Source: Flavobacteriales bacterium (GTDB taxonomy: Bacteria; Bacteroidota; Bacteroidia; Flavobacteriales; Weeksellaceae). Taken from it: 64,000 nt of DNA. The position numbers and the translations under genes are program-made. Within the stretch, counting starts at the first letter, position 1; every line of letters begins with the position of its first letter. Location: positions 1 through 64,000 of the forward strand of contig PDSY01000022.1 in assembly GCA_002747105.1 (NCBI GenBank), written 5' to 3'. Below, in pieces: positions 20,004-61,512 of this stretch. The notes under the pieces were generated by a model that saw only the letters and a program-made list of their open reading frames with translations, made no database searches and was not told the origin of the DNA.

Positions 20004-22052
20004 ATGAATGTTCCCAAGGCGAAAAAGCAAACACAAGTTTTAGAAAAACATAACGATAAAAGGCAAGATGATTTTTTTTGGCTCAATAAAAGAGATGATA
20101 AAGAAGTTTTAGATTACCTTGAAGCTGAAAATAAATATACCGAATTTCAACTTAAAGACACCGAAAATCTTCAAAAGGAACTTTTTGAAGAAATGAAATC
20201 TCGTTATAAAAAAGATGACCAATCTTTGCCTTATTTTTTTAATGAATATTGGTATTATACAAGGTTTGAAGACGGACAAGAGCAACCTTTGTTTTGTAGA
20301 AAATCATTGCGTTTAGATAACGAAGAAGAAATCATGATTGATGCTAATGAATTGGCGAAAAATCAATCTTTTTTTGAGTTGCGAAGTCTTGCAGTGAGTA
20401 CCAATAATAAAATTGTGGCTTTCTCGTCTGATAAAGTAGGAAGGAGAATTTTTGATATTCATTTTAAAGATTTGGAAACGGGAGAAATGCTCGATGATAA
20501 AATCGAAAATACCACAGGAAAAATTGTTTGGGCGAATGATAACGAGCATATTTTTTATATTAAAAAAGATGAAAGTTTAAGGGCTTTTCAGGTTTTCAAA
20601 CATAAGGTAGGCACCGATGTTTCGGAAGATGTGTTGGTGTATCACGAGAAAGATGAAACTTTTGATGTGTCTTTATACAAAACAAAATCTTTGCAATATA
20701 TTTTCATTGCCAGTTCAAGTACGCTTTCCGACGAACATCGTTTTTTACCTGCTAATAATATTAATGCCGATTGGAAGGTAATTCAGCCGAGGGAAAAAGG
20801 ATTGGAATATTCTGTGGAGCATCACGAAAATCATTTTTATATCATCACGAATATTGATAATGCAACGAATTTCAAATTGATGAAAACCCCTGTTGCTCAA
20901 ACTGAAAAAGAACATTGGCAAGAGGTTATTCCGCATCGTGAAAATATTTTGTTAGAAGGATTTGAGCTTTTTCAAGATTATTTGGTGCTAGAAGAAAGAC
21001 AAGAGGGCTTAATTCATTTAAGGGTAATGGATTGGCAAACAAAAACGACTTATGATTTACCCTTTTCTGACCCTGCGTATGCTACTTATATTGGGATTAA
21101 TTTAGATTTTAATACGGATAAACTAAGGTACGGCTACACTTCACTCACCACACCGAGTTCCATTTTTGAGTGGGATATGACCAATAAAACTTCAAAACTT
21201 CTGAAACAGCAAGAGGTTTTGGGTGGTGATTTTGCACCTGAAAATTATATTTCCGAGCGAGTTTGGGTAGCATCAAGAGATGGAGAAAATAAAATTCCTG
21301 TTTCTTTGGTGTATCATAAAGAAACTAAAAAATCGGACAAAACACCAATGTTGCTTTATGCTTATGGAAGTTATGGGCATACTGTAGATGCAGGGTTTTC
21401 GAGTATAAGATTATCGCTTTTGGATAGGGGATTTATTTTTGCGATTGCCCATATTCGGGGAGGCGAATATTTGGGAAGACAATGGTATGAGGATGGCAAA
21501 ATGCTGAAGAAGAAGAACTCTTTTTATGATTTTATCGATGTAGCTCAGTATTTTATTGATGAAAATTATACTTCATCTCAAAATTTATATGCGATGGGCG
21601 GAAGTGCAGGCGGTTTATTAATGGGAGTAGTAGCAAATTTAGCACCTCATTTATTCAACGGGATAGTGGCACAAGTTCCTTTTGTAGATGTAGTTACGAC
21701 GATGTTGGATGATAGTATTCCTTTAACGACGGGGGAATACGACGAATGGGGGAATCCTAATGAGGAAGCGTTTTATCATTATATGAAATCGTATTCGCCT
21801 TATGATAATGTCAAAGAACAAGATTATCCCAATATGTTGATTACAAGCGGCTATCATGATTCTCAGGTGCAATATTGGGAGCCTGCAAAATGGGTGGCAA
21901 AATTACGAGATTTGAAAACGGATAATAATTTACTACTCTTAAAAACCGAGATGAGTGCTGGGCATAGCGGACGAAGTGGGAGGTTTGAAGGTTTGAAAGA
22001 AGATGCTTTGGAATATGCATTTATTTTGAAGGTTTTGAGTGGTGAATTTTAA
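20004..22052 (+). CDS. S9A prolyl oligopeptidase / oligopeptidase B
   Basis: AMGGSAGGLLMG serine site, YGSYGHTVDAGFSSIRLSLLDRGF, HSGRSGRFE. Confidence 0.93.
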   Translation: MNVPKAKKQTQVLEKHNDKRQDDFFWLNKRDDKEVLDYLEAENKYTEFQLKDTENLQKELFEEMKSRYKKDDQSLPYFFNEYWYYTRFEDGQEQPLFCRKSLRLDNEEEIMIDANELAKNQSFFELRSLAVSTNNKIVAFSSDKVGRRIFDIHFKDLETGEMLDDKIENTTGKIVWANDNEHIFYIKKDESLRAFQVFKHKVGTDVSEDVLVYHEKDETFDVSLYKTKSLQYIFIASSSTLSDEHRFLPANNINADWKVIQPREKGLEYSVEHHENHFYIITNIDNATNFKLMKTPVAQTEKEHWQEVIPHRENILLEGFELFQDYLVLEERQEGLIHLRVMDWQTKTTYDLPFSDPAYATYIGINLDFNTDKLRYGYTSLTTPSSIFEWDMTNKTSKLLKQQEVLGGDFAPENYISERVWVASRDGENKIPVSLVYHKETKKSDKTPMLLYAYGSYGHTVDAGFSSIRLSLLDRGFIFAIAHIRGGEYLGRQWYEDGKMLKKKNSFYDFIDVAQYFIDENYTSSQNLYAMGGSAGGLLMGVVANLAPHLFNGIVAQVPFVDVVTTMLDDSIPLTTGEYDEWGNPNEEAFYHYMKSYSPYDNVKEQDYPNMLITSGYHDSQVQYWEPAKWVAKLRDLKTDNNLLLLKTEMSAGHSGRSGRFEGLKEDALEYAFILKVLSGEF

Positions 22053-22110
22053 ATTATATAGTTTATACTTCAGTATTTTGTATATTGAACTAATTTGTAC
22101 GCAATATTTT

Positions 22111-22300
22111 TAACGTACAGTTGGTTTTCATACAGCGATAGCGAAATGCTGAGTGTAGTTGCGTTGTTGAAAAATTATAAAGCAGAATTTATTTAAATTT
22201 TTCAACAAACAAGCACGAAACGATAAGCATGAGTGGTGCGGAGCAATCGCCTTATGGAAACCTTGAATTTTTGGTTCTTTTGCTTCAAGGCAAAATGAAC
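22111..22300 (+). repeat. Structured intergenic repeat, copy A
   Basis: ~190 bp similar to 28962-29150; nested arms 22123-22131/22254-22262, 22135-22139/22246-22250, 22146-22150/22226-22230, 22164-22176/22196-22208, plus 3' hairpin 22274-22300. Confidence 0.85.
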
Positions 22301-22343
22301 AGAATAATAATTAGTAAAATAAAAATTTTTAGGTTTATACGAA

Positions 22344-22745
22344 ATGTTTAAATTAAAAAGAAAAAAGATGAAAAATATAAATGAAAAACAGCTTTGGGCA
22401 GAGGTAGAACAATTCTTTGCAACTCATTTTGGCGTAGAAAAAAATGCTCCTGTCGAGACGATGCTCTTTTTGATTGGTGTTCAAGAATTGGGCAGTGGAA
22501 TGCAAAAATACACTAAAGATGATAAGGTCAATTTGGTGCATATAGCGGTTTGTAGATTATTAGAACCTTTTGGTTATTATCGTTTTTCGCATTATGATGA
22601 TGACGGTTATCCTCATTTTGAAACCATAGAAGAATTGCCTGAACTTAAACCTAATGAACAACAAATTCTAATGAAAAAAGCCATTGTACAGTATTTTGTA
22701 GATGAAAAGTTGTTTGATGAAAATATTTTGAATCAGTTGGAGTAA
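22344..22745 (+). CDS. Conserved hypothetical protein
   Basis: 133-aa ORF, likely start MKNINEKQLW at 22368; flanked by repeats. Confidence 0.65.
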   Translation: MFKLKRKKMKNINEKQLWAEVEQFFATHFGVEKNAPVETMLFLIGVQELGSGMQKYTKDDKVNLVHIAVCRLLEPFGYYRFSHYDDDGYPHFETIEELPELKPNEQQILMKKAIVQYFVDEKLFDENILNQLE

Positions 22746-22857: not shown

Positions 22858-22868
22858 CTTTGTGTAGT

Positions 22869-22912
22869 AATTCCCCTCTAAAAAGAGGGGTGCCACGCAG
22901 TGGCGGGGTGTG
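22869..22912 (+). repeat. Double-hairpin intergenic repeat, copy 1
   Basis: aattCCCCTCTaaaaAGAGGGGtGCCACgcaGTGGCggggtgtg; reverse complement of 61272-61315 with one mismatch. Confidence 0.85.
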
Positions 22913-22918
22913 TAAAAG

Positions 22919-25370: not shown

Positions 25371-25431
25371 GGTTGAGGTTAAGGCTGAGACTAAATTTAA
25401 TCTTAGCCTTCATTATTTAAAACCTAACTCA

Positions 25432-26157
25432 ATGAAAAGAATCATACCAATAGTATTGTCTTTATTCGTTGTTTCTTGTAATAACGAAAAGGTGGACAAG
25501 GATAAAACAGTCAGTACTGATAAAATCATACAGCACCACGATTATACCAATATGGTGTTGTACGATACTATTCAAAAAGAATTAGTGCTTGATACTTTGT
25601 CAAATGGTGAAATAGCAGATTTTCCAATATTATATATTGGCAAAATAAAGGATTCTATCAAGTTGAAAAGGGGCGATTTTGATGATTACAGTTATAGTTA
25701 CGAAGAGTTTGCTCGTACACAAAATCACGAGGAACTACCGCCACCTCTTAATAAATATCCATACCCGTATCAAAAAAATCAGATTTCTATTTTTATTGAC
25801 ACTACTAAAACAGTAGGTTTTTATGAGTACGATTCACCTATTGGTATAAAATCCTATCCTGTTTTTATTGAAAATTTAAGTCAAGACACATTGTATATTG
25901 CAAATAATGGATCTTTGCCAATGCTTACAGAAATGAAATCCAATTCAGAAGATTGGAAAGAGATAGAAAAACCTTTTTTGTTAATGTGTGGAGTGGGAAT
26001 TAGGCATGATTTTCTTCCACCCAACCAAATAGTCATCACTACATTAAGACAAAATTATGGTACTACAAAAGTTAAATATCGTTTGAAACTTAAATGTTTT
26101 GACAAAAACTTTTATTCAAACGAAATTAATGGTAAATTTCAAACTAAACTTAAATGA
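25432..26157 (+). CDS. Lipoprotein, tandem paralog 1
   Basis: Lipobox LFVVSC; strongly similar to following ORF at N- and C-ends. Confidence 0.8.
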   Translation: MKRIIPIVLSLFVVSCNNEKVDKDKTVSTDKIIQHHDYTNMVLYDTIQKELVLDTLSNGEIADFPILYIGKIKDSIKLKRGDFDDYSYSYEEFARTQNHEELPPPLNKYPYPYQKNQISIFIDTTKTVGFYEYDSPIGIKSYPVFIENLSQDTLYIANNGSLPMLTEMKSNSEDWKEIEKPFLLMCGVGIRHDFLPPNQIVITTLRQNYGTTKVKYRLKLKCFDKNFYSNEINGKFQTKLK

Positions 26158-26918
26158 AAAGAATCATACTAATAGTACTGTCTTTATTCTTTATTGCTTG
26201 TAATAACGAAAAGATAAAGGAGAATAAAAGTGTCGTTAATACCGACAAAATAATTAAATGCCACGATTATACCAATATGGTGTTGTATGATACTGTTCAA
26301 AAAGAATTAGTACTTGATACTTTGTCGTCATCAGGCTATGAAATTCCAGATTTTCCAATATTATACATTGGTAAAATAAAAGACTCTATTAAGTTGGAAG
26401 AAGATGATGTATTAATTAGCAAATATAGGTGTTCAGAATTAGAAGAAGATTTTATTGATTTTAAGGGAAGAACAGTTCCCAAACTGAAATGCAAAAAGCC
26501 AAATGATAAAAACCCAATTTCCATATTTATTGATACTACCAAAACAATAGGTTATGATCGATATTGTTCATCTGTTGGTATAAAATCCTATCCTATTTTT
26601 ATTGAAAATTTAAGTCAAGATACTTTGAAATTCGGTATTGAAGATTATATATTAATTAAAACACAAATCAAGGATTCCCATTCTCAGTGGAAAGACCTTG
26701 ACTGTGAACCTGAAATTTGTGAGGTAATGAGCGGTAATTACCTTCCTCCCAATCAAATCGTTATCACTTCACTAAAACGATATTATGGAACAAAAGATGT
26801 AAAATATCGTTTAAAATTTGAAGGCTTAAATAAAACTTTTTACTCAAACGAAATTAATGGTAATTTTCAACCTCAATCATCAGCCTCAAAATCCAAACTA
26901 ATAGAATTCATACAATAG
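26154..26918 (+). CDS. Lipoprotein, tandem paralog 2
   Basis: Lipobox LFFIAC; overlaps previous gene by ATGA; 3' end overlaps msrB. Confidence 0.8.
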   Translation: MKRIILIVLSLFFIACNNEKIKENKSVVNTDKIIKCHDYTNMVLYDTVQKELVLDTLSSSGYEIPDFPILYIGKIKDSIKLEEDDVLISKYRCSELEEDFIDFKGRTVPKLKCKKPNDKNPISIFIDTTKTIGYDRYCSSVGIKSYPIFIENLSQDTLKFGIEDYILIKTQIKDSHSQWKDLDCEPEICEVMSGNYLPPNQIVITSLKRYYGTKDVKYRLKFEGLNKTFYSNEINGNFQPQSSASKSKLIEFIQ

Positions 26919-28082: not shown

Positions 28083-28847
28083 ATGAAGGGTATTTTATCA
28101 TTTTTAGGAATTGTGATGTCGGTTTTAATGTTTTCTCAAATACCAAAAGGGAAAACAAAATCAGAGCGAAAATTGAAAAATACTTTAAATTCAAAAGCTT
28201 TGAAATCACAGAAGAAAAACCTTGTTTATTCCTACGGGGAAAAGCGTGTTGCTAAGAGAATGAATAATACAGGGAGAAGGTTTGGTCGCTCTTCGGAGGT
28301 GTTTATAGAAATTTTAAATTCTGATTACTACACCGTAGAATTGAATGATGAAATCATCAGTAGTCCTTATGGGAAATTTAGGTTTTTCGAAGTGCCTTCT
28401 GGGTATCAGACTTTATCGATTTATAATGATGGCTATTTGATTTACCGAACTTATGTAGAGGTGGAGCGTAATGCAAGAACAGTTTTAGAATTTATAGAGG
28501 GAGAGGGTTTGTTCTTGGTAGGTATATTGGGGATTAATGGCGTAGGTGGAACAATGCCCAACATAATGAGTCCAGTTGAGTTTACTCAGTTTAAACAAAT
28601 GCTTAAAAACAGTGCCTCTTTTGATGAGGATAGAATACAAATGATAAAAGGACAGTTGTCCGCAGGTAGGGTATTTAATGTATATCAAATAAGGCAAATG
28701 GTGTCGATGTTTTCTTTTGATAACAATAGACTTAAAATTTTAATAGAAATATTGCCCAATTGTATAGACCCACAAAATTATTATTTATTAGAAAATGAAT
28801 TATCTTTTATGAGTAATAAAAGAAAGTTTAGAAAGATAATTGAATAA
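28083..28847 (+). CDS. Secreted DUF4476-like protein
   Basis: Signal peptide; MSPVEFTQFKQMLKNSASFDEDRIQMIKGQLSAGRVFNVYQIRQMVSMFSFDNNRLKIL. Confidence 0.75.
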   Translation: MKGILSFLGIVMSVLMFSQIPKGKTKSERKLKNTLNSKALKSQKKNLVYSYGEKRVAKRMNNTGRRFGRSSEVFIEILNSDYYTVELNDEIISSPYGKFRFFEVPSGYQTLSIYNDGYLIYRTYVEVERNARTVLEFIEGEGLFLVGILGINGVGGTMPNIMSPVEFTQFKQMLKNSASFDEDRIQMIKGQLSAGRVFNVYQIRQMVSMFSFDNNRLKILIEILPNCIDPQNYYLLENELSFMSNKRKFRKIIE

Positions 28848-28961: not shown

Positions 28962-29150
28962 TAACGCAAAGTTGGCTTTCATCCAGCGATAGCGAAACGC
29001 TAAGTGGAGATGCGGTTGTTGAAAAATTATAAGGTGTTATTTTTTTAATTTTTCAACAAAAAAGCACGAAACGGAAGCGTGAGCGGTGCGGAGCAATCGC
29101 CTTATGAAAGCCTTGAATTTTTGGTTCTTTTGCTTCAAGGCAAAATGAAC
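28962..29150 (+). repeat. Structured intergenic repeat, copy B
   Basis: Same element as 22111-22300; arms 28974-28982/29104-29112, 28986-28990/29096-29100, 28997-29001/29076-29080, 29016-29028/29047-29059. Confidence 0.85.
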
Positions 29151-29217: not shown

Positions 29218-30249
29218 TTAAACCGACTTTAAAATCGCCTGATTAATATCATTAATCAATTTTGGACCTTCATAGATGAAGCCCGTATAAATTTGCACTA
29301 AATCTGCCCCTGCGTTGATTTTTTCCATTGCATCTTCTGCTGAATGAATACCTCCAACACCAATGATAGGGAATGCTTTATTCGATTTCTCAGCAAGGTA
29401 CTGAATGATTTTGGTGCTTTTGTCTTTTATCGGCTGACCGCTTAGTCCACCATTGCCAATTTCATTCAGTCTTTCGGTAGAAGTTTTTAAACCTGTTCTA
29501 TCCACCGAAGTATTAGCCGCAATAACGCCATCTATTTTTGTTTCGGCTACTAAATCAATGATTTCATCTAATTGAATTTCGTTCAAGTCAGGAGCTATTT
29601 TTAATAAAATAGGTTTAGGTTGGTTTTCTTTTTGATTGATTTTTTGAACTGCTGTAATCAGTTCTTTAAGATAATCGGCATCCTCTAATTTGGCGTGACT
29701 ACCTACATTGGGGCAACTTACATTGAGTACGAAATAATCCACATACGGGTGTAATCCTTGAAAGCAAGTCAGGTAATCTTCAGTATAGTTTTCGGGTGCA
29801 GTAGCTGTGTTTTTACCGATGTTGCCTCCGATAATGATTTTCTTTTTATTTTTTTTCAGTTGTTGAATAGCTGACGCTAAACCTTCGTTATTAAATCCCA
29901 TTCGGTTGATAACCGCCTTGTCTTCAGGTAATCTAAAAAGTCTTTTTTTAGGATTTCCAGCCTGTGCCTTTGGGGTAACCGTTCCTATTTCTACAAAGCC
30001 AAATCCCAAATCTGCCAATTCATTATAAAGCACTGCATTTTTGTCGAATCCCGCCGCTAAACCAACTGGGTTGTCGAATTTTAATCCAAACAATTCTCGT
30101 TCTAGTTTTTTATTTTTGATAGGCTTCGGGGCAACTAATCGCATTAAAAAAGGAATTTTGTTGAAGAATTTCAATGCCGAAAAGGTAAAGTGATGTACTT
30201 TTTCTGGATCAAATTGAAACAGCATAGGACGAATAATAGACTTGTACAT
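29218..30249 (-). CDS. pyrD: Quinone-dependent dihydroorotate dehydrogenase
   Basis: [51 protein letters not shown]; start MYKSIIRP. Confidence 0.96.
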
Positions 30250-30347
30250 AGATTGTTTTTTTTGTTGGCACAAATTTAGTGATTTTTTTGGTATCAATCT
30301 ACCGATGGATTAATGTATATTAAGTCGATAAATCATCATTTATTAGA

Positions 30348-61098: not shown

Positions 61099-61271
61099 AG
61101 GGGTTTTAGAGTTTGAAGTTTAAAAAGTTCAAGGTTTACAATGCTGTTGGTGCAAAAATAAAAAAAATGACTATTCTGCCAATTACAGGTTGGATATTCA
61201 TTAAGTCAAACGCATGAAATTTTCATTGGGTATAAGATTAACGCAATGATAAACAAAGGGTTTTAACCATA

Positions 61272-61315
61272 CACACCCCGCCACTACGTGGCACCCCTCT
61301 TTTTAGAGGGGAATT
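61272..61315 (-). repeat. Double-hairpin intergenic repeat, copy 2 (inverted relative to copy 1)
   Basis: cacaccccGCCACtacGTGGCacCCCTCTttttAGAGGGGaatt; 43/44 identical to reverse complement of 22869-22912. Confidence 0.85.
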
Positions 61316-61512
61316 AACAAATTATTTTCGTAATAAAGATTAGTGTTTCTTTGATAAATGAAATGCCTTGGTATTTCTTAATTATTGGTTGTTTGGTTTG
61401 TTTCTTTGTTTTCCTTTGCGTTTTATATTTTACGCCTTATTTTTTGCATTTCAATATTTCGTGCGTTTGACCTAGATATTCATTTACAGCTTTGGTCTTT
61501 TAACGAAAAAAA

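Follow-up and report, generated by a model that had tools for sequence, protein, structure and literature searches.

The stretch of DNA analysed here ("the window", 64,000 nucleotides of a Weeksellaceae contig) carries two copies, A and B, of an intergenic repeat of about 190 bp, whose parts and neighbouring genes are listed in Table 1. Our direct reading of the sequence found every stem that the original prediction had assigned to A and B, and the counterparts in B of the stems of A fall at 28974-29150. That prediction placed both copies downstream of a plus-strand gene; both are indeed 3' of such a gene, and it should be added that the gap containing B is convergent, its downstream gene being on the minus strand. 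Two other features of the window may be mentioned. A 47-bp sequence (TAATTCCCCTCTAAAAAGAGGGGTGCCACGC...) is present twice in inverted orientation, at 22868-22914 and 61270-61316, with 98% complementarity, and this pair is probably another dispersed repeat; at 25431-26918 two lipoprotein-like paralogues (241 and 254 aa) lie side by side as the result of a tandem duplication.

Table 1. Copies A and B of the element and the genes that flank them (positions in the window)
Feature	Position	Strand	Basis or remark
Prolyl oligopeptidase family gene (Peptidase_S9_N + Peptidase_S9), upstream of A	20004..22052	+	Pfam
Copy A, upstream block TTTTAACGTACAGTTG	22105..22122	+	Partly common to the five copies of this genome; outside the fold (five-copy alignment)
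Copy A, body (nested hairpin)	22123..22262	+	Pairs kept in 5/5 copies, three covary
Copy A, outer stem	22123-22131/22254-22262	+	Read from sequence
Copy A, stem GCGAT/ATCGC	22135-22139/22246-22250	+	Read from sequence
Copy A, inner stem ATGCT/AGCAT	22146-22150/22226-22230	+	Read from sequence
Copy A, 13-bp stem	22164-22176/22196-22208	+	Five-copy pair check
Copy A, 3' module	22262..22300	+	Covariation across the phylum
Copy A, pseudoknot helix, CTTGAA with hexaloop TTCAAG	22262-22267/22284-22289	+	
Copy A, linker TTTTT	22268-22272	+	
Copy A, 3' hairpin, GTTCTTTTGC/GCAAAATGAAC	22274-22283/22290-22300	+	T22296 bulged
133-aa protein gene, downstream of A	22344..22745	+	No Pfam family
DUF4476 protein gene, upstream of B	28083..28847	+	Pfam
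Copy B, body (nested hairpin as in A)	28974..29112	+	Outer stem 28974-28982/29104-29112
Copy B, 3' module	29112..29150	+	Sequence identical to that of A
Dihydroorotate dehydrogenase gene, downstream of B	29218..30297	-	Pfam

Five copies in one genome

The genome to which the window belongs is 56.6% complete (27 contigs, 1.2 Mb). A search of all of it found five near-full copies with 87-89% identity, namely A, B and a new one on each of contigs 13, 1 and 14; the copy on contig 14 (locus L005) has a 52-bp insertion in the 3' arm that splits its outer stem. In the five-copy alignment we modelled 51 pairs (46 nested and 5 loop pairs), which comprise the four stems originally described, the 3' hairpin and the pseudoknot pairing discussed below. 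All 51 are standard in all five copies, with two T.G cells and no A.C cell, and three of them covary, one in the outer stem (T-A/C-G) and two in the inner stem (T-A/C-G/T.G and G-C/A-T). The RNA folds of A and B are more stable than those of dinucleotide shuffles (z = -2.95 and -3.48, respectively); the minus strand of A also folds well, as is expected of any palindrome.

The same genome contains a second family of elements, about 250 bp long, in which a nested hairpin is followed by the same 3' module; it has outer inverted repeats around CAGGGCAAAATCATACTT, and terminal inverted repeats are evident. Examples are found at L010 (1200-1540), L011 and L014 and on contigs C24, C14, C4 and C27, and several copies are at contig ends.

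The 3' module

The last ~40 bases of the element, CTTGAATTTTTGGTTCTTTTGCTTCAAGGCAAAATGAAC, form what we call the 3' module, which recurs in many other elements of this genome and of its relatives. Its hairpin had been described as separate, which is not the case: the hexaloop TTCAAG pairs with CTTGAA immediately 5' of the hairpin. When this pseudoknot is written out for 17 module sequences, 98.9% of cells pair and the covariation score is 0.273, versus 0.091 in shuffled sequences. Natural variants of the loop helix include TTGAA/TTCAA, TTGAT/ATCAA, TTGAC/GTCAA and, once, TTGGC/GCCAA. Among 65 distinct modules from across the phylum 99.2% of cells pair (at most 56.3% in slid controls), seven pairs have changed on both sides, compensatory changes are present in both helices, and the covariation score is 0.233 versus 0.056 in shuffles; these modules were aligned to a hairpin model, so the values are biased toward the hairpin helix and unbiased for the loop helix. 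Comparison of sequences thus clearly predicts a pseudoknot, in which the hexaloop of the hairpin is paired to the upstream six bases.

The linker between the two helices may take part in the structure as well. Its TTTT is invariant in our hand-made module set, and TTTT and the AAAA of the hairpin are invariant, or almost so. The linker faces these four paired As in the orientation, parallel to the purine strand, that U.A-U triples need. The sequence thus allows for a triple helix, with the TTTT placed in the major groove of the hairpin where AAAA pairs with TTTT. In most modules the A-run is 4 long and the T-run 4 or 5; both runs are longer in two variants (A5/T6 and A6/T7), but not in a third (A6/T5). 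An apparent correlation between linker length and stem length was discarded as a product of over-extended pairing. Some modules (L015 1505-1570, L149, L162, L169, L185, L194, L205 and L207) carry an extra insert of ~22 nt or longer in the hairpin loop, for example GACTACGTCGAATCTTCGA, which is a small palindrome.

Distribution among the Bacteroidota

The element matches 22 of 58 relatives, nearly all of them in the 3' module only, and a covariance model search of 299 sampled Bacteroidota genomes from 142 genera found the module in 79 genomes and 41 genera. The A/B-type body, by its outer arms, had no other match among 325 genomes of the family, with the best two candidates per genome scored, so the module and not the body is the truly conserved part. 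At most loci that we folded, the module stands directly 3' of a long interrupted hairpin whose sequence is specific to the lineage, and the aligned loci firmly suggest a unit made of these two adjoining parts, a lineage-specific long hairpin and a phylum-conserved module of ~40 nt. In a genus that we label Chryseobacterium-like by inference, the element is ~200 bp long, extends from GAC.TAGGAA to the module and has sharp fold ends; five genomes searched have 4 to 13 matches each, some in tandem arrays. The search of relatives proposed with the original prediction yielded further copies. The repeat and its structure were correctly recognised there, and the pseudoknot and the phylum-wide module were both overlooked.

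The element is unannotated in Rfam: release 15 gave no match on it at the gathering score in the window and 14 related loci, and permissive thresholds gave chance hits only. It had no match in a plasmid search and a single weak 28-base match, to an unannotated record, in a phage search, and our literature search, mostly outside subscription journals, returned no paper that prints the module or describes the element.

The folded strand

Pairs changed on one side only tell the two strands apart. Read on the sense strand, G.U outnumbers A.C by 20:4 in the module and by 23:3 and 14:5 in two groups of bodies, where the consensus fold slightly favours G.U. Such an excess implies that it is one particular strand that folds, be it RNA or single-stranded DNA, and on these counts the strand whose pairing is kept appears clearly to be the sense strand; a symmetric palindrome acting at the DNA level is disfavoured. 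Together with the covariation and the pairing in five copies, this asymmetry carries the case for selection on structure well past the two pairs from which it was first argued. It is not diagnostic of RNA, since G.T is also better tolerated than A.C in folded DNA; compensatory change and tolerance of G.U on the sense strand fit a structured RNA, and a folded single-stranded DNA would fit them too.

Gain, loss and conservation at orthologous sites

Two sites have the element inside runs of arg genes. In the gap between argC and argD about half of 100 Chryseobacterium-like species have a full-length match, and in the others the element is missing or only a remnant remains (truncated or decayed remnants are seen at L217, L219 and L221). 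The elements are mostly 199-203 bp long (or ~223) between spacers of 15 to 87 bp, and they have at least three arm types, which are exchanged as blocks with both sides matching; given such type swaps, simple vertical conservation does not suffice as an explanation. Elements of the same type are 0.86-0.87 identical, versus 0.41-0.61 in the spacers and 0.68-0.71 at fourfold-degenerate sites, the last comparison being uncontrolled for codon usage. At a site elsewhere, 3' of a gene for an aldehyde dehydrogenase (Pfam), genome G020 has an intact element and its close relative G231 a decayed one, and the other loci that we read have none. This site (L113-L140) carries, in almost all the Chryseobacterium-like species read, a different structured element of ~150 bp, GGGCGTGCCCG...CGGTCGGGCTATCCAGGGCT...CCCTTCCTATCCCTCACGC. 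From these alignments, copies are evidently gained and lost at orthologous sites, and those that persist evidently evolve more slowly than fourfold-degenerate sites. Homogenisation within genomes was rejected as the source of the slow change, since copies are no more alike within a genome (0.759) than between genomes (0.753), and recent amplification is likewise not its cause.

These results bear on the simplest explanation of such a repeat, that it is a passive DNA palindrome (a MITE) with no present role, whose pairing is a relic of a symmetric origin. The element is mostly dispersed and intergenic, and remnants such as those between argC and argD and that in G231 are what a passive element would leave. 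But a relic should not change more slowly than fourfold sites where it persists, nor show the G.U over A.C asymmetry or compensatory changes across the phylum, and in view of these three observations we consider this explanation very improbable.

Gene direction, replication and candidate mobilising enzymes

Between codirectional genes in the family-level set, 48 copies are in the sense and 10 in the antisense direction; these include orthologous sites and arrays and so are not 58 independent events, as P = 4.5e-7 assumes. A phylum-wide sample has 6 sense, 7 antisense, 7 divergent and 6 convergent copies, so the gene-sense bias of the family-level set is rejected as a general rule, and a general 3'-UTR role is not supported. 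Some copies are antisense to both neighbours, as might be expected if the element were an independent small RNA, or belonged to an RNA-protein system acting in trans, and had a weak promoter of its own; a pseudoknot with a possible triple helix is typical of functional RNAs. However, a search for sigma-70 type promoters and for terminators with shuffled controls found no signal above chance at A or B, the body sequence varies between lineages, and the neighbouring genes examined are ordinary metabolic ones among which we noticed no recurrent partner; we regard an independent RNA of this kind as improbable.

In the Chryseobacterium-like genus the orientation of the element tracks the replication arm, with gene direction not fully separated from it. 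In G123, with 15 clusters, the strand changes just twice around the chromosome (permutation P = 0.0028), in agreement with the broad GC-skew arms, and the coding strand there has little leading bias; in G087 the orientation agrees in 7 of 7. Most other complete genomes of the genus have the minimum of two switches, with few clusters and each individually non-significant, and G080 and G223 have four. Orientation by arm fits insertion at the replication fork as in IS200/IS605, whose orientation follows replication (PMC5371812), and it points to DNA. It supports the explanation that the element is a non-autonomous mobile one, IS200/IS605- or REP-like, whose working form is a single DNA strand that folds at the fork, on the template of the lagging strand. 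The structure would then be kept because the enzyme that moves the element has to recognise the top strand in its folded state. A gain at an orthologous site, differences in presence and absence, and tandem arrays all agree with this. On the other hand, G568 and G445 (labelled Flavobacteriaceae-like by inference) show no arm segregation of the element, comparison with sites that lack it gave no readable target duplication, and recent amplification is slight.

The enzyme that such movement calls for was sought among Y1 transposases. The Y1 family is present in 67 of 79 module-bearing genomes and in 149 of 220 others (Fisher P = 0.003, uncorrected for kinship), which leaves 12 module-bearing genomes without it; G209 has copies of the element and no Y1 hit, and G078 and G084 have Y1 hits and no intact copy. 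None of 30 Y1 loci, with flanks of up to 1.5 kb, contained the module. A RAYT/Y1 link was thus rejected, as there is neither adjacency nor strict co-occurrence. A Bacteroidetes-specific TnpA-REP subclass, 2.6 (RAYT group 5), has atypical flanking structures, further copies of which are reported from other parts of the host genome (PMC6006769). The 2.6-like RAYT genes at L081-L084 have palindromes of a different kind on their flanks, such as CGCTGGCGCGAGCATCATGCTCGTG, and not the element. These RAYT genes, which have a YIH(Q/N)NP motif, with their own inverted palindromes alongside are a candidate REP family of the Bacteroidota. No cognate transposase was found among the Y1 and 2.6-like RAYT genes examined, and with these points against it we judge movement as single-stranded DNA to be a rather unlikely account of the present structure, though a close second choice.

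Interpretation

We favour the view that the element is old, was once mobile and is now held by selection as a folded single strand. The original prediction offered three functions (an unannotated RNA, a mobile palindromic element or a transcript-end processing element), and the dispersal, the gain and loss and the constraint on one strand all bear these out in part; RNA and single-stranded DNA are not separated by them. Our first choice, held tentatively and with somewhat less than even confidence, is that A and B belong to an old and dispersed element of the Bacteroidota, derived from a mobile one, and that its folded strand works in cis, for the most part as RNA and in intercistronic or 3' positions. 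There a long hairpin with a knotted tail would stop exonucleases that proceed 3'-to-5', or would mark where a transcript is processed. REP and BIME elements act in this way within enterobacterial operons. The persistence between argC and argD and the sense excess of the family-level set speak for this choice; the even counts across the phylum, the orientation by arm and the lack of a promoter or terminator signal above chance at A and B speak against it.

A bolder form of the cis-RNA reading, which we think unlikely as a whole, is that the element represents an uncatalogued, phylum-wide folded RNA in which a fixed triple-helix pseudoknot caps exchangeable hairpins, adopted by its hosts for operon transcripts such as those of arg. 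The host would then use it to protect or to cut transcripts inside operons.

A 40-nt knotted module that is conserved throughout the phylum, while the bodies change from lineage to lineage, provides a strong handle: with a single model the elements can be located in any Bacteroidota genome. In Chryseobacterium-like genomes the element may account for some of the intergenic repeat load, and the argC-argD gap, which occurs with and without the insert, is a natural test of an intercistronic element.

Comparison with known systems

The element is best described as a variant of dispersed structured repeat outside REP, BIME and MITE, because the testable links that define those classes are not found. 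With REP/BIME and RAYT it shares a short palindromic form, dispersal between genes, occasional tandem clusters, the position of some copies within gene runs, and a folded strand that is the one that counts. It differs in its unit of ~180-200 bp with a pseudoknotted tail, and in its absence from the flanks of the RAYT genes in the genomes that have it; by eye, the alignments showed no GTAG/GGAG foot, and the GGAG inside the body of A and B is away from the hairpin foot. TnpA-REP subclass 2.6 belongs to the same phylum and likewise has structures copied elsewhere in the host genome (PMC6006769), but the 2.6-like genes at L081-L084 carry palindromes other than the element. IS200/IS605 and their non-autonomous derivatives resemble it in strand-specific hairpins and in the replication-tied orientation that it shows in the Chryseobacterium-like genus; the element, however, has no linked transposase, and its orientation trend is not universal. 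A loop-to-upstream helix like that of the element is also not known from the ends of IS608.

Two kinds of structured RNA may also be compared. Flavo-1 RNA (RF01705) is a structured Bacteroidetes element that adjoins ours in one genome (in G006 Flavo-1 RNAs flank one copy, at L032 1239-1317 on the minus and 1609-1685 on the plus strand), but it is a distinct family of 76 positions that matches neither the window nor the element. Telomerase RNA and ENE elements contain pseudoknots with U.A-U triple helices, and the module is like them in having a U-run so placed that it could run alongside the purine strand in an A-U helix, parallel to it; it differs in that its putative triple helix would cap a dispersed bacterial repeat.
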